Positions 757 through 38,755 of a DNA stretch of 38,755 bases are shown in pieces. The translations under genes and the position numbers were made by a program. Every line of letters begins with the position of its first letter. Position 1 is the first letter of the stretch. The notes under the pieces are model-generated. The model saw nothing but the letters and a program-made list of their open reading frames with translations. It made no database searches and was not told the origin of the DNA. Where the stretch lies: positions 1 to 38,755 of the IMG/VR virus record IMGVR_UViG_3300028394_000157. One strand, 5' to 3'. Origin of the DNA: a virus.

Positions 757-3700
757 TTAAGCCTGAGCTTCGCCCCAACGTAATACCAAGTTAGCGTTAA
801 CAGCACTACCCTGTGTCACATACACGTTGATCATCAGCACGTCTGGACCGTTTGGATAAGTTCCTCTACCTCCGATTGGAGTATTAGTCAACTCTTTCAA
901 TGGTGATAGATCTAGTCCGTCTTTTGAACTTGGGCTTGAGATAAAGGAGAAAATAGTTTCACCCGGTGATGCATATTGATTTCGACTAAAAGTCAATGCT
1001 GTACCGTTTTGAATCTGCCCAACTAGTGCGGCACTTAATGTAACAGTACCTGCACCAATCGACGACACAGTTGTAGCACCTTGCAAGAACACACTACCAG
1101 AAACAGCATCACCTACTTGTAGGTTAGTGTTGGTTGTTAGTGTAAGTGTTGTAGTACCGGTGTTGGCAATAGCACCTAAGTTAATGTTTTGCGTAAAGGC
1201 ATTATCGAATGTAATACTTGATCCGGCCGCCACTTGGCTAAAGCTAGGCTGTCCTGTACTGGTTAAACTGTTCCAGGTAACGTTAGCAGTGTTTGTGGGA
1301 TAGTTACTTGGATTTAGTACTCCTTCAATGACCAAAGCCTGACCAGCCGCCGCACTACCCGCAGTAATTTCAATACCTTGTAGTAACAATTGAGCGCGAT
1401 TAATCAATTCACGTACACCTAAGTCGCCTGTGATAGCATTACTAACGCTGGGTGCTAGACGAATAGCAAACGCTGTGGTTTTTCTAACCTGAGCACTGAC
1501 GTTAGTAGCTTGGTAGTTAAAAATGTAACCACGGTCATTGTCAAATTGTCCGTCTGTTAAGAATGCTGAACCCCAATGGCTGATTACCGGACTGGCTGTT
1601 TGACCAATGACGATAACGCCTGCTCCTGCTGAGTGTGCCGCGGCTGAACCGCCTGAGAATGTTCTGTTGGTGCCCGCAACCCATTGTGTAACAGTGGCCG
1701 CTCTGGTAAGTCCACTTAACACCGCAGTACCACTACTGGCAGTTCTAGCGGTATAACTGATCTGTTCATTATCAACCAGTACAACTCCTGCACTTGGAAG
1801 ATAAGTTACATCGGTAACAGTCATCTGTGTGCCCACAGAGCTAAGAGCGTCTGTTAATGTTGTACGACCACTTTCGTTTTGTACTTCATAACGAACCGGC
1901 ATGTTACCCGAACGCATATAAGCTTCTGTATTAACGTTGGAATTTTTTACACGGTGTACAGTGATATAATTTCCGTCTGGGCCACGTAGCATCCAGTCAA
2001 TAAATCCAGCACCGTACCATGTCCATTGTAGGCCAATCATCTGCATCTTGTTGGGCAATAGATTGTATCCGCTTGGATTATATACACCGTTTGATCCATC
2101 GCAACGATCTATGTTCCACTGATATTGAGGATATAAAAGATCTTTAACCTTGAGCATTTTAGTGCCAGATGCGGATGCACTGCCTCTATAGTCAGGTGTC
2201 ACATACATAGTTGTATTATTGGTAATAGCAGAAACCACGTGAGTCATACCTTTGATAACCACGCGATCACCTGCCGCCAATTGTTCAGTAAATCTTGAAT
2301 TAGTTCCTGTAACTAGGTTAGAATCTGGTGTCACTGCCACAGTACCCGCAGTCTGTGCAGTGGCAGTTCTTAGGCCCAGCGCCATCAGCTGGCCGTCATA
2401 CTGCCAATACATACCATTTTGATCGTCAAATGTTCCTGCACGAACAGTTGAACCATACCAGGTAACCATAGATACTAGGCAAGGTGTTGATAATACCGCT
2501 GTGGTAGCACCTAACAAACTGGTTGATAAGAATGTAAATGTACGTTCGTCTACAATGGTAGCCACAGTGTAGTTACCGTTATAACCTGTAGTGGTTACTC
2601 CGCTGATAGCAATTACTGCGCCAGCCTGTAGTCCGTGATCGATATCGTCAGTGATCACTGTTACTGTAGATCCAATACTGGTACCACTGGCTGTGATGCT
2701 ACGGACATCGTAGTTGGGTGCAAACAGAGCACCTGTATTATAGTTGATTGATTTACCAGATTGATAACGGATATATTTCTTACTCATACGCACAGCCTGG
2801 CCGCCGTGTGCCGGACCGCCGGTGCCCAAACTTACACCGCCGTCGAAGGGTCTGTGAACATAAAAACTATCTGAGCGAACATACACGCTTCCAGCAGGAG
2901 TACCAGTAATAGTTCCCACATTTCTAGCAGGGTAAGTCAGTGTAGTTGCACTAGGCACACTGGAAATATAAAACGGTCCTTGGCATAATGTATTATTATT
3001 AGAACCGTTATCGCTGGTAATAGCAACATAAATGCTGTCGCCCGGAACTAACCCGTGATTGCTGGTAAAAGTTACAGTTACAGTGCCAGTAGTGGTTGCG
3101 CCACTGCCTGCTGTTGAAAATGTAGGTGTACCAATAGATCCGCCGGTATAAAATCCGCCTTTTCTAATCTGTGTGTATACCTGGTTAACAGATTGACCAA
3201 AACTTGAACCTACACGAGCTTTGGCATAATATTTAAATGATGTTGGTGTTGGGACACTGTCAATGACAAATGATCCCTCTGCTCGAGCATATCCACTTAC
3301 ACTGGCATCAAGACCTTTGATTGTGATCGCAGTGCCTGTGGTCAACTGATGTGCGGCCGAGCAAGTGACTGTGATTAAACTTGCAATATCTGTGGCCGCT
3401 CCAAACGAATAGTCTGATGTAGTGGCTGTGATGGTTTGCAAGTCTGTACCTGGAATTTCATAAATGCCGGGATAACCTCGAACCATACTGATAGTCTGCC
3501 ACTTGGTAGGCTGTAGTCCGTATTCAAAGTCAGCGTCCAGCATACTTTGTGGCAATGCTACACGAGTACGTTCAAATGCATCTGTGCCCATAGCCCACGG
3601 ACGAACTGTTAATTCGTTCTTTTCAACAAATATTTGCAGTGTGTCACCGGACGACATGCCGCTGGTACTATACCCCAGCGTGATAGTGGTTATACCATCT

Positions 3701-8901: not shown

Positions 8902-11900
8902 TTACGCTGTCATTGCAGTTCTTGCCACTTTGATCACCATAGATGACGGAGTGTAGTTTGGAGTAAATGTCAATGTCATTGTACCTCCACTGTATCCTGC
9001 ATCAAATGATCCTAGTTCACCTGTTGAAGTCGCAATAGCATATTCAGTTAAGAATGCGTTTGTACCATCATGGAACAATAGGATTTCTTCTGCATGTATC
9101 TTAACACCGTCTACAATTTGAACAATATATTTTGCAGTTCTATAGGTAGCTCCACTATATGTGTCTAAGTTAACCAATGCGCTAGTAGTAATTGCTGAGC
9201 TGGTGTAACTTGATTGTAAATTGTTATTACTAAACAGTGCATTAATTACTGAACCTGCGGCCGCTGTACCAGCAGTAATACTACCACCTAATGTAATACT
9301 CTTAGCGAGACCCATACCACCTGTGGTTACAATGGAGCCAGCGTTAGTAGCATTACTGTCTGTGACGTTGTTTACCTGTAGGGTGTTGTTTAGTGTTGTA
9401 GAATTGGTTACTTGGAAAGTTCCACCAACTGTACCGTTACCGCTAACTGTCAAACTTGTTGCTGTAAAGTTAGTAGTAGTTGTACCACCGTTCAAGAATG
9501 TCTGTTGTGTTACAGATAGCTGACCAGCAATAGTAGCAGTGCTGGCTACATAGATATCTTTAGCAATACCAACACCACCAGCTACCTGTAATGCACCAGT
9601 TGTAGTTGATGCCAAACTAGGTGTAGTGCTACTTAATACTAGTGATCCAGCAATGGTAGCAGTTGTGCCAACATACAAATCTTTAGCAATACCAACACCA
9701 CCTGTTGTTTGAACAGCACCAGCAGTTGCACTGGCCAACGTTGGTGTTACGTTATTGTGATATGCTATTCCAACAAAAGTAGCAGTAGTACCAACATACA
9801 AATCTTTGGCAATTTCTACACCACCGGAAACTTCAACTGCGGCTACTGCAGGAGCTCCACCTAATGTCGGAGCGGTGCTGGTAGCAAAAATTGTCCCAGC
9901 GATAGTAGCAGTTGTGCCAATGTAGATATCTTTAGCAACACCAACACCGCCAGTTACCTGTACCGCACCAGCAGTTGCTGAGCCTAGTGATGGTGCAGTG
10001 TTAGTTGGAAGTAAAATTCCTGCGATAGTAGCAGTAGTACCAACATAGATGTCTTTGGTAATACCAACGCCACCTAGCGTTTGGATTGCACCAGCAGAGG
10101 CTAAACCTAAGCTAGGTGTTACACTGGTTGCAGTCATTACGGTAGTGCTTGCACCACCATTTAATAATGATTGACCTGTGACTGTTAATGTAGTGCCAAC
10201 TGTTAATGCATTTGTCACAGTCAATGCGCTGGCTGTTGCACCAGCATTGAGAGATACATATCCACTAGCAGAAATCTGTGCGGCTGATAATGTACCAGTT
10301 ACACTTGGGCTAGCTGAGAATACAATATTACCGGTACCTGTTGCACCAGTTGAGGTAACACCTTCAAGTGTAACACGACCAGTAGCAGTAAAAGCACCAC
10401 CAACAAATAATCCTCCTGCAACACCAACTCCACCAGCAACTGTCAGTGCACCTGTTGTGCCGCTGATCGTACCATTAGTGCCAGTTACCGCAATGTTAGC
10501 AAATGTACCAGTAGTAGCAGTAATTGTGTCTGCACCACCGTTAACAAGATTAAGGTTACCGGCAACGTTAATGTCACCACCAACATATAGGCTCTTAGCA
10601 ACGGCCACACCACCTAAGGTTATGAAAGAACCTGTGCTAGCACCAGAACTTGCGCTATCAGTTGTTCCAGAAACTACGATGTTTGTGGTTGTAAAGACTG
10701 TGCCATTATACACCAATCCAGCATTGAATACTGTTGATCCAGGAGCACTTTGATAAGGTATTTGATTAACCAGTCCGCCGGCGATGTTGGTAGCTGTTGT
10801 AGAATTACCTGCGCTCAGAGCACCAACGCTGGTCCAAGCTGGGTTACCACCACTGACCGATAAGATATAACCGTTAGTACCGATCGGCAACATTGATGTT
10901 GAACCAGCCGCAGTCTGGTATGGTAAACTGCCGCTTGCTCCACCTGCTAGGTTAGTGGCAGTATTAGCATAATAAATGGTACCATTTAATTGTTGTACTG
11001 CGCTGTTCCACAGTACGTTAGAGTTGACTAGGTTACCACTAGCGTCTGAGAATATAACACCGCTGTTTGTGGTCAAGTTAGCCACTGTTGCGCTGGCCGC
11101 ACGTATATTGTTAGAGCTGTAAATTGCACCAGTTACACCAATACCACCGACTACCCGTAGCGCACCTGTGCCAGTTGATGTGGCATTTTGTGTGTCCTGT
11201 AGATACGCACTGCCAGTTCTAAATGTACCAAGTGTTGCATTGGAAAAGTCTCCACTAGCACCTTCTGCCCCGGCATTATACCAGTGTAGTTCTTTAGTAG
11301 CATTGTCTAATACCAATGCCGCATTGGTATCAGTTGAATTTGTATAATAGCGGAAACGGAAACCAATGTCTTTACCATCGTCAACAAACCAAGGAGAATA
11401 AACACCACCTGGTGGTGTATGGATTTCAAGGATGCTATCTGTATAGTATGTGTTGGTACTCAATACATAAGTTGCTGTACCACTGAATGTTACAGGACCT
11501 TTGAACAATGCCGCACCACTAATAGTCAATCCGCTATCTGCGTAAATACCACCTTGGGTATAAATCGCGTTGGCAGTGTTAGTAGCAGTGTTGTACTGCG
11601 TACTCATCACAATCAAGTTGTTGTTTATATAAGCGCCGCCAGTTACTGTCAACGCACCTAGACCGGCACTGGTAGCAGAAGTAGCATTAGAAACACTAGC
11701 AACTCCGCTGACACTTAATGTGCCGCCAAGTGCTGTAATATTTGTACCGGTAACAAACAGAGCACCACTGAATGTGTTTATTGCTCCGTTAAAAAGACTA
11801 GGACCGCCTACTAGTAAATTATTTGTTACGGTGGCCGCACTAATGGTCGCCCCGCCGTTTAATCCACTAAAGCCGGTTACTGTTAACGAATTAGTTACAG

Positions 11901-30430: not shown

Positions 30431-32752
30431 TTATGCCAATTGAAATAGGTCGGGGTTAAGAACTTTAACCGCATCATAGGTCCTTCGACTGTTGTCAGCA
30501 GTGATCTTAGCCTGCACTAGTAGTTGTTCGCTGATGTTATTTAAGCCTCTAATCACATTTAATAACTCACTATTGGCGGCTCCGGATACCATTCCAATCA
30601 TCTGTTCGGGAGTCATTACACTTTCAGTACCATGTAGGGTAGCCGGAGTTCCTGATCCCCAATTTTCAAACAGCTTACCAGTCATGCCCAAAGATCCTGT
30701 AGCTCTGGGTGTACTTGCCGGTGGAACACTAGGCTTATTACCGCTCAGTACCTCTTTAATAATATCATCCTGTATTTTAAGAGCCGACCTTTGTTCCCTA
30801 ATTTGCGCATTGTAAGTACCTTCCCACCCTTTACCTCCAGGAGCATCCCTCAGTGCTTCCAGTCTACTGATTTCTGCATTTATCGTTTTCTTTTGGCCTT
30901 CAGCGTCGGATAATCTTTTAGCAGGATCTTCACCAAACAACAATCTAGCAATTGCACTATTCCTTCTTAGAGCATTGATAATAAATTCTAATACACTTTC
31001 CATTAAGCCTGCCAGCATGGGGGCTACATCGTTTTTCCAAAAATCACTAATGATTGGACCAAATAAATTTATCATAATATCTTTATTGGCTCTCCAGGCC
31101 TCGGCCATAGCATCCCCTAGGACTTTAAACACTCCATTGAATTTTTCTTTGTAGTCTTTTCCATCGCCCCAGGCTTTCTTTAAATTACTAAATGTAGTTT
31201 CAAACCAACTGGCTACGTCTTTAACTATTTTTCCAAATTCTTCACTCCTTATTAAATTACTAATAGCAGTAAACACAGTGTCAGACAAACTTATAATTCG
31301 ATCCATAAAAGGGCCTAACGCAACATTCAATAATTCTCTGACTTTAGATCCGAATTGTGTAAATCGCATTTCTAGCTCACCAAGTGCACCTGCACTGCCT
31401 TTTGCCGCATTTTTTTGGTCTTCAGCAATCTTGGCCTGTACTGCTGTCATACTGTTACCGTTAGCCTTCAGTAACCTTTGCATTTTAATAAATTCATCCG
31501 GTATCTGACCTGCCAGCATACCCGAGGCTTTTTGCTGATCAGAGAACATGTCTAAAGTTTTACCAGACGCTATTGCTATCCTACCCATGAACTCTAAAGT
31601 AATTTGTGTTTGTTTTTTGGCATCTCCTTTGGCCGCGGCCATATCTTTTCTGTACTGTTCCCCAGCAAGACTTGCCCCATTACTAAACACAGCTAAGTTT
31701 GCTCCCGCTTCACTAACTGGAATATCTAATCCTCTCAATCTGGCCTTAACTTCTTCTACTGCGGCTTTACCAAAGGGAGTTGCGGCTTCTATAGCCGCCA
31801 TTACTCCGGCTTTATCTGCCTTATCCAGCCCATCAACAAATGACATCCATAGCTGGTCTCTTTCAACTTCTTCAATTTCTTTCTGTACTTGATCTCGGCG
31901 TTTTCCAGTTAGTTTAGACAGCATGTCTAGATTTGTTAGGTAATCGTTTGTTGCTTTTGCCAACTCACTTGAATTAGACATGTTCTCTTTAGAACTAATA
32001 CCCTGCATTTTCATCACAGTGGCTAGTCCACTTGCGGCCTGATCAGCAGTGTAGCCCAATCCCATAATACCTCTAGCATACGGACTACCGGGTCCTAATA
32101 ATTTTCCGCTGGCCTGTGTAAATCTTTCAATTCCTGTATTAATATTTCCGCCACCAAAGGCCGCTAAGGTTTCACTATTTTGTGTAATAACGTTTACAAA
32201 TTGTTCCAACCCTAATCCAGCCTGAGAAGCCATTCTCGATATGTCAAACAGACTGCCACCAAATGTGGCTCCGACTACCGCAGTACGTCTGTAAAGATCT
32301 AGATAATTTTGACCTACTTGTGCAATTTGAGAAAAAATATTAAAAACTTTTCCAATCACAGGGAGGTCTTGAAACACAGCAATAAAATCGCTCAGCCTTG
32401 CTCGACCGTCCATGGCTTTTTTGGTAAATTCTACAAAGTTTTCACCTAGATTAACCATGTGCCCAATAAAACCGCCTATGATCGATCCTGCGTATCCAAC
32501 AACTTTAGACAGTGCGTTAAATGCGACACCTAACGCTTTTGAGGCCACTCCGGCTACGGTAGCTACAGTTCCCAGGCCTCTAATACCGCCTACCGCGCTG
32601 GCCGCGGCCCCTGCTAGACCGCCGGCACCTCCCCCGCCGCCTGCGGCACCGGCACCTCCCGCTGAAAGACTAACCAGTCGTTGCAATAATGCCGTTTGAG
32701 CACCGGCTTGCGTTAAGAGGTCTTGTAGTATTGCTAGTTCGGCACCGTTCAT
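30431..32752 (-). CDS. Tape-measure-like tail protein
   Basis: This 773-residue, mostly helical protein has a Gly/Ala-rich hydrophobic N-terminal part (about 30-105, with GGAGAAGGGGGAGGLAGAAA and YAGSIIGGFIGHMV). The middle is a long helical domain that includes NLDMLSKLTGKRRDQVQKEI and further hydrophobic stretches near 480-610. It ends with GTPATLHGTESVMTPEQM, a motif common at the C-terminal end of tail tape-measure proteins. Length and composition fit a ruler protein that sets tail length, though T4 gp29 itself has 590 residues and this does not resemble it in the parts I know. Genes for a gp26-like protein and its partner lie next door on the other strand, which fits a tail-hub module. 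The ATG has no clear Shine-Dalgarno; a late box lies 60 bases upstream. An alternative is an internal virion protein. Confidence 0.72.
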   Translation of the reverse strand: MNGAELAILQDLLTQAGAQTALLQRLVSLSAGGAGAAGGGGGAGGLAGAAASAVGGIRGLGTVATVAGVASKALGVAFNALSKVVGYAGSIIGGFIGHMVNLGENFVEFTKKAMDGRARLSDFIAVFQDLPVIGKVFNIFSQIAQVGQNYLDLYRRTAVVGATFGGSLFDISRMASQAGLGLEQFVNVITQNSETLAAFGGGNINTGIERFTQASGKLLGPGSPYARGIMGLGYTADQAASGLATVMKMQGISSKENMSNSSELAKATNDYLTNLDMLSKLTGKRRDQVQKEIEEVERDQLWMSFVDGLDKADKAGVMAAIEAATPFGKAAVEEVKARLRGLDIPVSEAGANLAVFSNGASLAGEQYRKDMAAAKGDAKKQTQITLEFMGRIAIASGKTLDMFSDQQKASGMLAGQIPDEFIKMQRLLKANGNSMTAVQAKIAEDQKNAAKGSAGALGELEMRFTQFGSKVRELLNVALGPFMDRIISLSDTVFTAISNLIRSEEFGKIVKDVASWFETTFSNLKKAWGDGKDYKEKFNGVFKVLGDAMAEAWRANKDIMINLFGPIISDFWKNDVAPMLAGLMESVLEFIINALRRNSAIARLLFGEDPAKRLSDAEGQKKTINAEISRLEALRDAPGGKGWEGTYNAQIREQRSALKIQDDIIKEVLSGNKPSVPPASTPRATGSLGMTGKLFENWGSGTPATLHGTESVMTPEQMIGMVSGAANSELLNVIRGLNNISEQLLVQAKITADNSRRTYDAVKVLNPDLFQLA

Positions 32753-32829: not shown

Positions 32830-33708
32830 ATGCAGAACACTCAGTTTTCAAAAAAAGCCAATCCTTTGTCTGGTTATATGCGCCAACCAAAGATCTATAT
32901 CACACTTCCCAGTGGAGGCAATTTTTGGACACCCGGCAGTTTAGAAATGACCGAAACTGGAGAGTTTCCTGTTTACTCAATGACTGCTCGAGATGAACTG
33001 CTATTTAAAACTCCCGATGCATTACTTAACGGACAGAGTGTAGTCGATGTAATTCAAAGCTGTATGCCCAATATTAAAAATGCTTGGGACTGTCCTACGA
33101 TTGATTTAGACACTATTCTTATTGCAATTAGACTGGCCACATATGGCGACAAAATGCCATTTGCGCACAAAATTCCAGTGATCAACGAAGAAGTAGAGTA
33201 TGAACTTGATTTAAAAGTTCTGTTAAATCAACAGCAGGCTAATCATTGGGTTGAACAGGTGGTTATTAACCCCGACTTTATTATATTTGTTAAACCCCTA
33301 ACTTATAAGCATCTTACGCAGACCAGCATAAAAGGGTTTGAAACCAGTAGAATTATGAGCATGGTCAATGATGAATCTATCCCCGAAGAGCAAAAGTTAG
33401 AAATGTTCGGCACTAGTTTTAGAAATCTAACCAAAGTGACCATTGACCTAACAGCTGACAGCATTTATAAAATCGTTACGCCAGACGGTGAAGTGACCAA
33501 TGCAAAATTCATATCTGAGTTTGTACACAATGCTGATAAAGAAATTTTCCAAGCAGTACAGGAACATCTTAATAGCCTAAAAGAAAATAATAAACTGAAA
33601 GATTTAGAGTTCGCCACTACCGAAGAACAACAAGAAGCAGGAGCACCTGCTAGTTATTCAGTTCCTATCAACTTTAATAATTCAGATTTTTTCGCCAACG
33701 GCTTTTGA
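32830..33708 (+). CDS. 26: gp26-like baseplate hub / tail assembly protein
   Basis: This 292-residue protein is counted from ATG at 32830, chosen because CGGAGAAAAAT lies just before it; a TTG at 32791 would fall inside the promoter. Hallmarks of the T4 gp26 baseplate family are present: YITLPSGGNFWTPGSLEMTE, VYSMTARDELLFKTPDALLN, GQSVVDVIQSCMPNIKNAW, and ILIAIRLATYGDKMPF. The family helps assemble the baseplate hub around the tape measure. T4 gp26 has 208 residues; the extra length is C-terminal, acidic and helical, then an NFNNSDFFANGF tail. The last codons contain T TTT TTC, a -1 slippery heptamer, and a second ORF follows in the -1 frame. It is divergent from the tape-measure-like gene. 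Confidence 0.85.
   Translation: MQNTQFSKKANPLSGYMRQPKIYITLPSGGNFWTPGSLEMTETGEFPVYSMTARDELLFKTPDALLNGQSVVDVIQSCMPNIKNAWDCPTIDLDTILIAIRLATYGDKMPFAHKIPVINEEVEYELDLKVLLNQQQANHWVEQVVINPDFIIFVKPLTYKHLTQTSIKGFETSRIMSMVNDESIPEEQKLEMFGTSFRNLTKVTIDLTADSIYKIVTPDGEVTNAKFISEFVHNADKEIFQAVQEHLNSLKENNKLKDLEFATTEEQQEAGAPASYSVPINFNNSDFFANGF
33687..33693 (+). promoter_or_regulatory. Candidate -1 frameshift site T TTT TTC
   Basis: In the gp26 reading frame, GAT TTT TTC gives the canonical X XXY YYZ heptamer (T TTT TTC) four codons before the TGA at 33706. After a -1 slip the frame is open through 33705 and on into the downstream small ORF, to TGA at 33921. Heptamers of this form support efficient slippage in other systems; no experiment here shows that it is used. 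Confidence 0.5.
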
Positions 33709-33746
33709 TTCTAACTCTTCCTCAAATTGAGGAGGAGGTCAAACGG

Positions 33747-33923
33747 ATGGATGAAGAATCAAAAGCCTTAAAGAAAGAAATTTATAAGTTGGCTTGGTTC
33801 ATGCGCGGCTCGTTGAGCATAGAAGAAGCATTCTCTATGGATCTCATGGATCGAGATATTCTCATAGAGATTATAAAAGAAAATCTAGAAACTGCTAAAG
33901 AAACCGGATTACCGTTTTTTTGA
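33747..33923 (+). CDS. Small tail-assembly partner ORF downstream of gp26
   Basis: From ATG at 33747 this encodes 58 residues: a helical protein with KALKKEIYKLAWFMRGSLSI, EEAFSMDLMDRDILIEIIKE and ETAKETGLPFF. The 'LAWxMRGxLSxxEAxxMxxxDRxxIxxIIxEN' pattern is one I associate with the small ORF after gp26 in T4-like marine phages. The start is supported by a perfect GGAGGAGG (33731-33738), 8 bases before ATG. The frame is also open backwards to 33705 and beyond, into the -1 frame of gp26, so it may be made both alone and as a gp26 fusion. This is like the second component of lambda-type tail assembly chaperones (G and G-T). T4 gp51 is a possible functional counterpart. Its 3' end overlaps the convergent gene by 15 bases. 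Confidence 0.75.
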   Translation: MDEESKALKKEIYKLAWFMRGSLSIEEAFSMDLMDRDILIEIIKENLETAKETGLPFF

Positions 33924-34829
33924 TTCAGGGATTTTAGCCGCCGCCAATCTTTGATCAATCTTTTGTATAGAAGCTTTTAAATCGGCTATTTCAGCATTGC
34001 CAGCGGCCGTGCTTGCAGGAGTCGACGCAGGTGTACTTGCAGGAGTAGTTCCGCCAGCACCGCCCCCTCCTCCTTGAGCGTAGTAGGGATCAGGACGACT
34101 TGGGTCTCCAATACCACCTAGGCCATATCCGCCTTGAGTACTACCGAATGATTTTCGTTGACGGGCTGTATGATATCCAGCACCTAATCCACCTGCCGCG
34201 GCACCTATTGTCTGTCCAATACCACCAGCAGTTGCGGAGGCCACATCCCCTACGCCTTGTGCCACTGTAGATCCTAAGTCGCTTGCACCTCTAACAAATC
34301 TTTGGGCTCCGCGATTAAGAGCACCGGTGGCATCAGCAACTCCTGCCCCGAATTTAGTTGCATCATCACCTGACTGTGCAGAGTTTACATAATCCCACCA
34401 CGATTTCTTTTCAGCATCGGACGCACCCGCAGTTGGAGCAGTGGGTGCAGGTCCTGTTGGAGCAGGTGTAGTATCGCCAGTAGGTCCTGTGGGCGCACCT
34501 GGTGGTGTTGGAGCAGTAGGAGCAGGACCTGTTGGCCCGCCTGCTGGAGGAGTATTTTTACCCGGCAAAGGTACAGGAGCACTTGCTGTTTTTGCGGCCT
34601 TTTGTGCGGCTAATCTTTGTGCAGGAGTAGTTTGACCTAATGTATCACCTCCTACATCTGTAGTATTTGAGGCCTGTGCATTTCTAGCCTGAGCCTGTGC
34701 TTGTTGTGCTCCCGGAGCACCTGCCGCTATTTGACGACCTAGAGCTTGCCCCTGAGCATTTGAAACTTCTCTTCCAAAATTATTTCTCCGAGCTTCGTCT
34801 AAACTATCTACTAGGTGTTGGATTTTCAT
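33909..34829 (-). CDS. Ala/Gly/Pro-rich protein of unknown function
   Basis: This is a 306-residue protein. It begins MKIQHLVDSLDEARRNNFGR, then is low in complexity: Ala/Gln-rich (residues 25-60), Pro/Gly/Thr-rich with PTGPAPTAPTPPGAPTGPTG near 100-135, and a folded-looking segment SWWDYVNSAQSGDDATKFGA. A Gly/Ala helix with repeated GGIGQTIGAAAGGLGAG follows, then Gly and Thr/Pro/Ser runs (STPASTPASTAA). It ends with a 25-residue amphipathic helix, NAEIADLKASIQKIDQRLAA, likely a coiled coil. It carries its own exact TATAAATA promoter and GAGGAACAAAT ribosome site, so it is a late, probably virion-associated protein. It is convergent with the gp26 module. I do not recognise a family. Confidence 0.8.
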   Translation of the reverse strand: MKIQHLVDSLDEARRNNFGREVSNAQGQALGRQIAAGAPGAQQAQAQARNAQASNTTDVGGDTLGQTTPAQRLAAQKAAKTASAPVPLPGKNTPPAGGPTGPAPTAPTPPGAPTGPTGDTTPAPTGPAPTAPTAGASDAEKKSWWDYVNSAQSGDDATKFGAGVADATGALNRGAQRFVRGASDLGSTVAQGVGDVASATAGGIGQTIGAAAGGLGAGYHTARQRKSFGSTQGGYGLGGIGDPSRPDPYYAQGGGGGAGGTTPASTPASTPASTAAGNAEIADLKASIQKIDQRLAAAKIPESKKR

Positions 34830-35307: not shown

Positions 35308-35736
35308 CTAAATTTTAGATTTTATATGGGAGCCATGTACACGGACTTGTATGTGTCCGTTGTAATAATCATCGGATTCTAATACTTTGCGGTCGAATTG
35401 TTCTCGGGCCTCAACGTAAGATGTTTCTGATTTGCTTTTACAATAATACAATATTTCTCTTGTAAAATTTTCTTTGCCTATGGAGTTGATATCTGCTGTT
35501 AAATTAGGACTGGACCCGTAATATTCCTGCCAGCCACTATCGATTTTGCTTCGAATCTTCTTTTTCTTCTTGGTGCCGTTCTTTAACTTTACAGTCTTGT
35601 AGGTCGTTTTACTAAACTTTGATAATTTTTTGCCAATATACTTACGTCCCGAAACAGTGTTGGTGATTAGATACACAAATCCAACACAGTCATCGGGCAA
35701 TTCATTTACTGTCTGTCCTTGATAGGTCCAAGACAT
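35308..35736 (-). CDS. SegE-like GIY-YIG endonuclease
   Basis: This 142-residue protein has the GIY-YIG core: VGFVYLITNTVSGRKYIGKK, with V21-Y22-L23 standing for the GIY and Y33-I34-G35 for the YIG. A lysine-rich loop follows (KLKNGTKKKKKIRSK, about residues 50-64). Next come GWQEYYGSSPNL and a distal YVEAREQFDRKVL, whose Glu109 or Glu112 would be the metal-binding glutamate of the family. It resembles the free-standing SegE-like group of phage T4 relatives, which cut DNA and can spread by homing; some are probably repurposed. The gene starts 3 bases after the TGA of the 65-residue gene, so it belongs to the gp46/47 cluster rather than sitting in an intron. The C-terminus (HIQVRVHGSHIKSKI) is basic. 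No separate DNA-binding domain is evident, so homing specificity is unclear. Confidence 0.85.
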   Translation of the reverse strand: MSWTYQGQTVNELPDDCVGFVYLITNTVSGRKYIGKKLSKFSKTTYKTVKLKNGTKKKKKIRSKIDSGWQEYYGSSPNLTADINSIGKENFTREILYYCKSKSETSYVEAREQFDRKVLESDDYYNGHIQVRVHGSHIKSKI

Positions 35737-35937: not shown

Positions 35938-36238
35938 TTTTTGTTCCTTTTGGTCTACCGACCGGTTTAGTATTGGCCCTCTTCCAGGCTAGTTTTTCTT
36001 CTTTTTCTTTTAGTTTGTTAGCTCTAAAATTCTTTGTATGCTCTTGGCTCACATCTCTGCAGGCCAGTAGCAGTTCTCGTTCCAGTTTCATCATGGCCCT
36101 TAGGCTCTTTCTTACTCCTAGTCCAGTATCATACCCTCTAGTGACCGCAAACACATGATGGTAGTTATGCAAATTTACTGCATGCTCCACATATTTTGAA
36201 TATAAATCGAGATACTTTTGTAAAAGGTCATTCGACAT
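35900..36238 (-). CDS. Small basic protein with AT-hook-like motif
   Basis: This 112-residue protein has a helical first part (LLQKYLDLYSKYVEHAVNLH, NYHHVFAVTRGYDTGLGVRK, SLRAMMKLERELLLACRDVS) and a strongly basic end, LKEKEEKLAWKRANTKPVGR followed by PKGTKNGQRNRTN. The GRPKG within KPVGRPKGTKNG resembles an AT-hook core (GRP flanked by basic residues), so minor-groove DNA binding is a fair guess. It overlaps the end of gp46 by 11 bases and the start of the 65-residue gene by 38 bases, so the three are translationally linked. Its place beside gp46/gp47 suggests a role in DNA metabolism; the family is not one I can name. Confidence 0.75.
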   Translation of the reverse strand: MSNDLLQKYLDLYSKYVEHAVNLHNYHHVFAVTRGYDTGLGVRKSLRAMMKLERELLLACRDVSQEHTKNFRANKLKEKEEKLAWKRANTKPVGRPKGTKNGQRNRTNETDL

Positions 36239-38009
36239 AGTCTGTATCGTTACTATAACTGGTAAATCCGTTTTCTTTTACCACACGAAGCACATTATTG
36301 ACCCTGCCAACTAATTCATCCTTATGTGATATCAAGTATATATTCTTATTGCGTTCACGGGCCATTTTTTTCAGTACAGCTAATGCTGACTCGACTCCTG
36401 CTGAGTCCATTCCGGCATCTACTAATTCATCAATAAACAATAAATTAATGCTTTGATATAGTCCTTCCCAAACATCACGGAAGGCAAAACTCATTGATAA
36501 AATCAATCTGTTGCGTTCCCCGCGCGACAGATTATCAAAATCTAGATCTTGTCCTAACTGTGTGATTTCTACATTCAGATCATTTTGGAAAATAACCTGA
36601 TGTGGTAAACCTAGCTTGTCGATATAATAACTTAATCGCCTGTTCAAATAGGTTAAATTTTGATCAATGATTTTCTTACGAATAAAACTGTCTTTATTGG
36701 TCAATAATTTATACAAAAACTCTTGATGATCTTTTAGCTTGGTAAGTGAGTTAATACTTTCCCAATCAATTGTTTGAATAGCAGTTTTCTTTAACTCGTC
36801 AATTTGTTCAGCATAGGGATTGTTTTCTATCGCCTTAGCCTCCAGTGATTTTTCTAACTGATCCAGGTTGTTCTTGTGTCCTAATGCCTCTGCTTCGGTT
36901 TCGTAGAATGTTGCGGGCTTTTTAGGCAATATGCCTATTCCGGCAATTTCTTCTGTAATCTGTTTTAGCTGGGCTCTTATCCGTTGCCAATATTCGTAGG
37001 CTTCGTCGTGATGTTGTACAGCGGTAGCAGTCATTTCTTCATGCTTATGATCGTGAAGCTCTTGTTCACAAGCATGGCATGTCTTGTTTGCTAGACTTTC
37101 AAGCTCTTTTGTATACTTCGCTAGACTTTTCTCCGCTTGACCCACGGCAGATTCTAGAGTTGCCTTTTGTTTGTTTAAGTTTCGAATTTTAGTATCGTTA
37201 TCAACCCATTTTTGTAGTTCGCCGTGTGCAGATAGTTCTGCTTCAATATCTACAGACTCCAGATTAACAATGGCTTTGCCTAGATTTTCTAATTCAGTTT
37301 GCTGTTTGTTATCCCAAGCCGAACTTTTTAATTGCAGGCTATCGATACTTTTTTGTACATTTTCGTTAGCTGTCTTTATGGCATTAACTTTGAGTTCTTC
37401 AGCATTGATTTTTTCTTTAGTTTCTTTAACTAGAAGTTTTAATGCTTCTGCTTTTTCACTGAGTAGGGTAATGCCCAATAATTGTTCAATGATTTCTCGC
37501 TGATCCGCGGCCTTCATTGACAGGAATGGCTCGGTGTAGGTGTTTAATGCCACTAGATGCTTGAACATTGTGTGCGACATTTCCAACATCTGCTCGATGG
37601 CTTTCTGTGTTTCTCGGCTGTCGCCTTGACTGTCATCTTCAACTTCTTCGGTTTTTATTTGTGCATCATTGACAAACAATCTAAGAATATTAGGTTTGCG
37701 ACCTCGCTCGATACGATAAAGATTACCGCCTTTTTCGAACTCAACAGTGACCAACATGCCTTTTCCGTTGATCTTGTTGATCAGATTTTCTTTGCGTATA
37801 TTGGTTAAGGCCTGCCCGTACAGCGAATAACTTAGGGCATTGATAATGGTAGTCTTACCTGTACCATTCCTTGATCCTGTATCATCACCGCCGAGGTCAA
37901 GATTACTACCCAAGACTAGGGTTAGCTGTTGCTTATCAAAGTCTACTGCCTGGGTTTGATTGCCCACGCTCATGAAGTTTTTTACGGTTAAACTTTTTAT
38001 TTTGAACAT
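36228..38009 (-). CDS. 46: Recombination endonuclease subunit gp46 (Rad50/SbcC-like)
   Basis: This 593-residue SMC-type ATPase partners gp47 to resect DNA ends for recombination-dependent replication. The nucleotide-binding site is SRNGTGKTTI with Lys52; the usual first glycine is Ser46, as I recall for relatives in this branch. Coiled-coil arms span about 185-310 and 330-450, and the zinc-hook turn is CHAC (Cys311 and Cys314). The ABC signature is NLSRGERNRLIL (Ser495-Arg496-Gly497-Glu498), and Walker B is INLLFIDELVDAG (Asp527, Glu528). T4 gp46 has 560 residues. Its ATG overlaps the gp47 stop by one base (TGATG), and its end overlaps the next gene by 11 bases, so all are in one operon. Confidence 0.95.
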   Translation of the reverse strand: MFKIKSLTVKNFMSVGNQTQAVDFDKQQLTLVLGSNLDLGGDDTGSRNGTGKTTIINALSYSLYGQALTNIRKENLINKINGKGMLVTVEFEKGGNLYRIERGRKPNILRLFVNDAQIKTEEVEDDSQGDSRETQKAIEQMLEMSHTMFKHLVALNTYTEPFLSMKAADQREIIEQLLGITLLSEKAEALKLLVKETKEKINAEELKVNAIKTANENVQKSIDSLQLKSSAWDNKQQTELENLGKAIVNLESVDIEAELSAHGELQKWVDNDTKIRNLNKQKATLESAVGQAEKSLAKYTKELESLANKTCHACEQELHDHKHEEMTATAVQHHDEAYEYWQRIRAQLKQITEEIAGIGILPKKPATFYETEAEALGHKNNLDQLEKSLEAKAIENNPYAEQIDELKKTAIQTIDWESINSLTKLKDHQEFLYKLLTNKDSFIRKKIIDQNLTYLNRRLSYYIDKLGLPHQVIFQNDLNVEITQLGQDLDFDNLSRGERNRLILSMSFAFRDVWEGLYQSINLLFIDELVDAGMDSAGVESALAVLKKMARERNKNIYLISHKDELVGRVNNVLRVVKENGFTSYSNDTDYVE

Positions 38010-38755
38010 CAGAGATTATTATAAATTTCAAGTAAGGTACTACGATCAAACTGCTCCGATTCAATATTAACCAATTGCTCGGTTACAATTTGATCCACGC
38101 TTTCAAATTTGGCATCTGGGTTATCGTCTATGGTACCTTCTAGATTTGTTTTATCCTGTATTAGACTAATTTCTCTAATATCATAATCATTAACAAAGGT
38201 TTCTTTGATAAAGTTTGCTTCTTCAAAGCTGATGTCGATATCAAGGTTGACCTTGAGATGCATCTTGCTTTTCATGATCTCATCTTTGCGATCAATTAGA
38301 TCGCTGAGTTTGAGTACTCTATACTTTGGACAGTTGGGCCAGTTGATAAACTCGGGCTCCTTGCCCCACTCGAGAGTCATCATACCTCGTTCGTCGTCAT
38401 AGTTATCGGCAAAATTATGAGGAAACGCATTTCCAATATACCAAATATTGCCTTTGTTCTGTCGTTTGTGGAAATGTCCACTGAACACGTACTCTGGTCC
38501 GCTGAATGCGTCAGCCTTGAGTTCGCCGTGATCTGGCATCTGTACCATGGCATTCATAAAGAATAAGGGCAATTCTAAATGACCAAACACATATCTGCTC
38601 TTGATCTTTTCCATAGAACGCCATTCGTTCCCTACCAACCACGGAACAAGGGTAACATCATCAAGAGTTGTTATACCATCTACAACGGTAACTCCTGGAA
38701 TGTGGCGACCAAACGCCGAGGAATGAATGTCTCGCTTGTCTTTGTAAAACAAATC
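38009..38755 (-). CDS. 47: Recombination endonuclease subunit gp47 (Mre11/SbcD-like), 5' part missing
   Basis: This is the C-terminal 248 codons of the nuclease subunit that pairs with gp46. The frame is open through the right edge; the first visible residues, DLFYKDKRDIHS, correspond to the place after GNH in the GNHD motif of the family (T4 has GNHDLHYKN), so about a quarter to a third of the gene lies outside. Visible metallophosphoesterase motifs are FGHLELP (the GHxEL motif) and FSGHFHKRQ (the GHxH metal ligands), followed by WYIGNAFPHNFADNYD. The C-terminal region contains a helical tail with acidic patches (EEANFIKETFVNDYDIREIS). The TTG at 38750-38752 is an internal leucine codon, not a start. 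Confidence 0.93.
   Translation of the reverse strand, partial: DLFYKDKRDIHSSAFGRHIPGVTVVDGITTLDDVTLVPWLVGNEWRSMEKIKSRYVFGHLELPLFFMNAMVQMPDHGELKADAFSGPEYVFSGHFHKRQNKGNIWYIGNAFPHNFADNYDDERGMMTLEWGKEPEFINWPNCPKYRVLKLSDLIDRKDEIMKSKMHLKVNLDIDISFEEANFIKETFVNDYDIREISLIQDKTNLEGTIDDNPDAKFESVDQIVTEQLVNIESEQFDRSTLLEIYNNL

Follow-up and report, generated by a model that had tools for sequence, protein, structure and literature searches.

The question raised by this locus was whether a gp26-like gene and the small open reading frame downstream of it are two genes or a single gene read with a -1 frameshift. The window, a 38.8-kb (38,755-nucleotide) fragment of a phage genome, had previously been read from the sequence alone, and it had been suggested that the two frames may be the counterpart, in the T4 branch, of lambda G and G-T. 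This suggestion was supported by the arrangement being kept at 97 of 97 loci, by a covarying RNA stem and by membership of a family that includes T4 gp26 and gp51. We concluded that the gp26-like gene and the downstream -1 ORF very probably form one gene for a TAC-N/TAC-NC pair of 292 aa and 364 aa, which would be made by -1 ribosomal frameshifting.

The gp26-like gene

The gp26-like gene occupied positions 32830–33708 (+), with GGAG 6 nt 5' of its ATG. Its zero-frame product of 292 aa is a putative TAC-N and would be the equivalent of lambda G. The protein matched PF12322 with 43.4 bits (E 4e-11), above the curated cut-off of 24.5, and phrog_150 ('baseplate hub') with an E value of 4.5e-14. 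Both T4 gp26 (208 aa) and T4 gp51 (249 aa) were full PF12322 matches and both were found in phrog_150; by these matches, the gene was established as a member of the T4 gp26/gp51 family. An AF2 model of the gp26-like protein was obtained with a pLDDT of 85. When it was searched against BFVD, T4-like baseplate hub assembly proteins were matched with a best E value of 7.5e-22; the Gp26 protein from Aeromonas phage 25 was also matched (E 2.3e-4). No solved tail-assembly chaperone structure was found among the PDB fold matches of this model, none of which was significant.

The slippery heptamer and its conservation

The last codons of the gp26-like gene were GAT TTT TTC GCC AAC GGC TTT TGA, where TGA was at 33706–33708. 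The slippery heptamer T TTT TTC was located at 33687–33693 (+) in the gp26 register, with four codons between it and the stop, and so both the position and the register given for it in the sequence-only reading were correct. In this register, the P-site and A-site tRNA-Phe could both re-pair after a -1 shift. It had been cautioned that runs of six Ts are not rare in such a genome. T runs may indeed be common, but the main ORFs of the window comprise 11,879 codon positions, and T_TTT_TTC was in frame at just one of them, the copy described here. The expected chance count in the last 12 codons of one gene was ~0.001. A chance heptamer was ruled out by this in-frame rarity together with the codon bias at the site in 75 loci.

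A tblastn search against phages gave 61 records, nearly all of them from jumbo phages (RaK2, GAP32, CBB, 121Q, PA5oct, Atu_ph07 and others). The conservation of the site was assessed in 97 loci, comprising the window, 16 annotated jumbo-phage relatives and 80 IMG/VR loci. The heptamer and the open -1 frame were present in all 97, as T_TTT_TTC in 96 and as T_TTT_TTT in XacN1, and none of these relatives lacked the slippery site or had the small ORF in another frame. The gp26 stop was located 1 to 11 codons 3' of the heptamer across the 16 annotated relatives, and the heptamer and the -1 ORF were still kept. Since independent genomes agreed, a sequencing error or a broken gene was rejected.

The heptamer was also compared with the synonymous expectation, as had been proposed earlier, and the outcome was in agreement with a slippery site. 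Among 75 non-redundant loci, the codon preceding the two Phe codons was always NNT, with nine different amino acids encoded. TTT served as the first Phe codon in 75 of 75 loci and TTC as the second in 74 of 75, when elsewhere in gp26 these codons made up 78% and 22%, respectively. For the T + TTT part alone, log10 P was -26 with the loci treated as independent, a value that is overstated since the loci are related. Moreover, the eight bases TTTTTTCG were invariant in all 62 loci with a 78-codon -1 ORF.

The -1 frame C-terminal exon

The -1 frame C-terminal exon, by analogy the equivalent of lambda T, was assigned to 33693–33923 (+) and comprised 76 codons followed by TGA; the -1 ORF was open in all relatives. 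The earlier claim that the frame is open from the heptamer to TGA 33921 was confirmed, the open frame extending from 33681 to TGA at 33921–33923 and reading FRFFRQRLLILTLPQ... The predicted fusion consisted of gp26 residues 1–288 and 76 aa, giving 364 aa. Beyond the gp26 stop, the open -1 frame extended over 58–76 codons in the relatives, and one contig (L076) ended inside the -1 ORF. The junction FFRxRLL, which exists only in the -1 reading, was present in the consensus of both C-exon alignments.

From the gp26 stop to codon 20 of the -1 ORF, the variability was 0.54, 0.41 and 0.66 at -1 codon positions 1, 2 and 3, respectively, and after codon 20 it was 0.40, 0.25 and 0.55. By this per-position pattern the -1 ORF behaves as a translated frame. 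The C-exon was located directly 3' of gp26 in 11 complete jumbo genomes, and no second strong copy of it was detected elsewhere in those 11 genomes. A second gp51-type gene that would replace the frameshift was also considered and rejected, since none was found in the jumbo genomes searched, the window itself being a fragment of 38.8 kb.

The AF2 model of the C-exon was helical, with a pLDDT of 86; it gave no usable match to solved structures and none in BFVD. The -1 ORF ended in the conserved peptide LPFF (33909–33923 of the window), and its end overlapped the convergent ORF at 33909–34829 (-) by 15 bases, the tails of the two genes being shared.

The downstream RNA stem

A stem 3' of the heptamer was the part overlooked in the sequence-only reading. 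A spacer of 6 nt (33694–33699, +), delimited by sequence and fold, was followed by a stem of 13 bp. The 5' arm of this putative stimulatory RNA stem, GGCTTTTGATTCT (33700–33712, +), paired perfectly with 33755–33767 (+), where the 3' arm, AGAATCAAAAGCC, was identified by stem search, covariation and fold. In the MFE fold, an inner hairpin was formed within the stem loop at 33715–33737 (+), by pairing of 33715–33724 with 33728–33737, and it covered most of AGGAGGAGG. The window element folded at -33.6 kcal/mol, with a z of -6.2 against shuffled sequence.

When 60-base folding windows were scanned in the 75 loci, the mean z was -1.7 at offset +10, while most flanks gave +0.1 to -0.6. A second, smaller and unexplained dip (mean z -0.9) was recorded at offset ~+160, inside the C-exon, which corresponds to ~33847 in the window. 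The stem search gave one diagonal common to 49 of the 75 loci, with the 5' arm at +10 to +26 and the 3' arm at +67 to +83 from the heptamer start, and the best stem score was 13.4 compared with 4 to 7 at control offsets. L083, L084 and L090 were among the loci with a nearer stem partner. The enterobacterial RaK2-type relatives kept the heptamer, and in most of them a long stem was missing.

Pairing was evaluated on 62 aligned loci, in which 77% of cells were paired compared with 30–53% when the partner was slid, and both sides had changed in 76 cells compared with 20–33 in the slid versions, the diagonal having been chosen from the same loci as were tested, which favours the unslid version. 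The covariation score was 0.207, with at most 0.095 for slid partners and at most 0.120 for shuffles (0 of 500 shuffles were as high); loci with another stem partner were left in this count, which lowers it. Both stem arms also encode conserved residues, and the covariation argument therefore rests on paired changes, such as A-U versus U-A at columns 22/76 and C-G versus A-U at columns 23/75. RNAalifold, applied to the 62 aligned loci over offsets +7 to +76, gave no consensus structure, since most 3' arms extend beyond this range and a different partner is paired in some clades. A covarying stem that begins 6 nt 3' of the heptamer fits a ribosomal stimulator. Frameshifting by -1 at 33687–33693 is strongly supported and, as judged from sequence comparison, nearly certain.

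Proposed mechanism and function of the products

The comparison of sequences shows the slippery site, the -1 coding frame, the stem and the place of the gene in the T4 gp26/gp51 family; that it is ribosomes which slip, how efficiently they do so and that both products act as chaperones is what we infer. In the proposed scheme, most ribosomes would stop at TGA 33706 and release TAC-N of 292 aa, and a minority, held by the stem-loop 6 nt 3' of T_TTT_TTC, would slip back one base there and read on to TGA 33921, resulting in TAC-NC of 364 aa. On the model of lambda G and GT, TAC-N would coat the tape-measure protein, tail-tube subunits would be recruited by the helical domain at the C-terminus of TAC-NC, the rarer product, and both proteins would leave before the tail is finished. 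If the frameshift is accepted, it is probable that the products act as such a TAC-N/TAC-NC pair.

The divergent neighbour of the gp26-like gene (30431–32752, -) encodes a protein of 773 aa. Its position was conserved and matched that of the gp26 neighbour in RaK2, CBB, GAP32, PA5oct and others, the RaK2 homologue being annotated as similar to tape measure. The sequence match of the 773-aa protein to tape measure was weak and no significant family match was obtained; it is a putative tape-measure-like protein and the likely client of the chaperone. On the other side of the locus, a SegE-type GIY-YIG endonuclease ORF (35308–35736, -; PF19835, E 2.8e-32) was flanked by the tail genes on one side and by the gp46/gp47-like genes (36228–38752) on the other.

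The alternative that survived best accepts the frameshift and takes its products for baseplate hub parts rather than tail-assembly chaperones. Such a role agrees with the annotation of gp26-like proteins as baseplate hub subunits and with the baseplate names of the fold matches; T4 gp51, however, carries the annotation of both a chaperone and a baseplate hub assembly protein, and tail-assembly chaperone genes of T4-like phages were identified in 2022 (Vladimirov, Gautam, Davidson, Virology 566:9, as cited in PMC10885494 and PMC12846349). The mass spectrometry of the phage CBB virion recorded 55 proteins, with 29 peptides for CBB_251 (PMC5259590), which is the counterpart of the tape-measure-like neighbour if the numbering is taken as equal to the RefSeq tags. 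CBB_249 and CBB_250 were not in the virion peptide list (PMC5259590), as expected for a chaperone, although this is weak evidence that depends on the same equal numbering. The CBB homologue is named 'structural protein' in its record. Overall, a role of the products as hub parts was considered rather unlikely.

Separate translation and transcriptional slippage as improbable readings

It was less probable still, and in our estimate improbable, that the locus consists of two separate genes with an incidental heptamer, the small ORF being translated alone from ATG 33747 or by re-initiation at TTG 33705. The sequence-only reading had pointed to AGGAGGAGG and to ATG 33747 before the small ORF, and both were present. 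In the window, AGGAGGAGG is a strong Shine-Dalgarno sequence 7–8 nt 5' of this ATG, from which a separate 58-aa product (33747–33923, +) is possible, and TAAGG-CTT-TTG was observed just past the gp26 stop in many relatives. However, Glu codons within a conserved peptide also account for AGGAGGAGG, which falls in the inner hairpin, and the -1 peptide was conserved from the heptamer onward, upstream of the starts. A counterpart of the ATG with its Shine-Dalgarno sequence was found in L018 and L023, with a weaker GAGGT. Within codons 1–33 of the -1 ORF, ATG was present in 46 of 75 loci and missing in 29, and 7 of the 75 had no ATG, GTG or TTG, when the ORF and the heptamer were kept in all; ATG or GTG with some Shine-Dalgarno sequence was found in 19 of 75. 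The start codons for a separate translation of the C-exon were thus erratic and not conserved. Separate translation may add to the frameshift in the window phage.

Transcriptional slippage on the T6 run, by which a mixed mRNA encoding the fusion would be formed, agrees with the T homopolymer found at the site in every relative but was judged highly improbable, because a run of six T is short for polymerase slippage, and, in addition, the run was almost always exactly six T before C, the T_TTT_TTC register was kept and the covarying stem 6 nt downstream fits a stimulator of ribosomal slippage.

The probable frameshift in the wider T4 group

In the span of phrog_150, gp26 ended at position 235 and gp51 ran on to 280, which gives it an extra C-terminus. 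One PF12322 gene was carried by 18 of the 19 matched records and two by T4. When whole records were searched with phrog_150, two genes were found in T4, RB49 and 44RR and one in KVP40. In S-PM2, P-SSM2, HTVC008M, Cr30 and phiM12, phrog_150 matched gp26 and, with its C-terminal part, a further stretch just 3' of gp26 in the -1 frame. A -1 exon was combined with T_TTT_TTC in S-PM2, P-SSM2 and KVP40, and with T_TTT_TTT in HTVC008M, Cr30, phiM12 and CM1. The C-exons of the cyanophage type matched phrog_150 from ~206–230 on and gp51 at an hhalign value of 70%. The match of the window-type (jumbo-phage) C-exon to the gp51-type C-terminus was weak (hhalign 27%), and no significant match was obtained by HMMER for the C-exon profile against T4 gp51. 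From position and pattern, the jumbo C-exon and the gp51-type C-terminus are likely homologous.

Other arrangements were observed as well. In Salmonella phage Vi01 (L113), the PF12322 gene was followed by a -1 ORF without an XXXYYYZ heptamer; a different shift signal may operate there, or the ORF may be translated separately. For the Campylobacter phage CP220 record, L160, L164 and L166, the short and long forms were seemingly far apart (11158–11790 and 2343–3035). Such spacing would represent a second two-gene arrangement, in which the genes are not adjacent as they are in T4.

The tree united T4-type gp26 and gp51 in a single group supported at 98/97; KVP40 was placed next to this group with weak support (67/55), and the root was not fixed. 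The grouping fits a duplication in the T4 line after a frameshift ancestor, a direction that we infer under a root that is not fixed. On balance, we favour the proposal that the single-gene -1 frameshift was ancestral in the wider T4 group and is still used in jumbo phages (with the long covarying stem), in cyanophages and in KVP40, while the two-gene gp26/gp51 of T4 would have arisen by a later duplication, after which slipping was no longer needed. In a 2010 comparison of genomes, the gp51 proteins from cyanophages and marine vibriophages were described as lacking the first 200 residues, with about a fifth of the full length (PMC3037559). A -1 exon would account for these shortened forms; if the frameshift was ancestral, the 'shortened gp51' of cyanophages would be the frameshift exon.

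Relation to known systems and significance

A conserved -1 frameshift of long-tailed phages, with gpG/gpG-T in lambda, was reportedly described by Xu, Hendrix and Duda in 2004. The window locus resembles the lambda pair in a -1 slip near the 3' end of the putative chaperone gene, in a predicted short and extended product and in its place beside a putative tape-measure-like gene. It differs in that no sequence relation was shown, in the divergent orientation of this neighbour and in the large stem 3' of the heptamer.

With the T4-like TACs (Vladimirov 2022) and T4 gp26-gp51, the locus shares PF12322, phrog_150 and a short form together with a long form that has a C-terminal extension. T4, RB49 and 44RR have two genes, whereas the window, all jumbo relatives, KVP40, S-PM2, P-SSM2, HTVC008M, Cr30 and phiM12 have one gene with a -1 slip site. 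As the 2022 Virology work is summarised in PMC10885494, some T4-like phages encode the short and the long form in two genes instead of using the frameshift, and in PMC12846349 the same work is the reference for poly-T slip sites of TAC-N genes from T4-like phages. The TAC of Vandenendeviridae and Andersonviridae (phage Adele), as far as it is described in the relevant part of PMC12846349, is likewise a myophage TAC with a poly-T slip motif, a -1 frame and no stop codon in any genome; its motif is GTTTTT, the families are other ones and no stem is reported in that part.

T4 was treated as the exception to the tail-chaperone frameshift in a review of 2016 (PMC5009743), and the title of the 2022 Virology work hints at another mechanism for T4-like phages. 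The sequences compared here indicate that frameshifting is in use in a large part of the T4 group. As T4-like tail-assembly chaperone genes were already identified in 2022, our reading is less new than it had seemed from the sequence-only reading; the window belongs to a large, already recognised kind of system, and the well-defined stem is the new detail. The frameshift reading would correct gene calls in many jumbo-phage records, and the slip site with a covarying stem of variable design would offer a clean system for measuring how tail assembly is governed by the ratio of the short to the long product.
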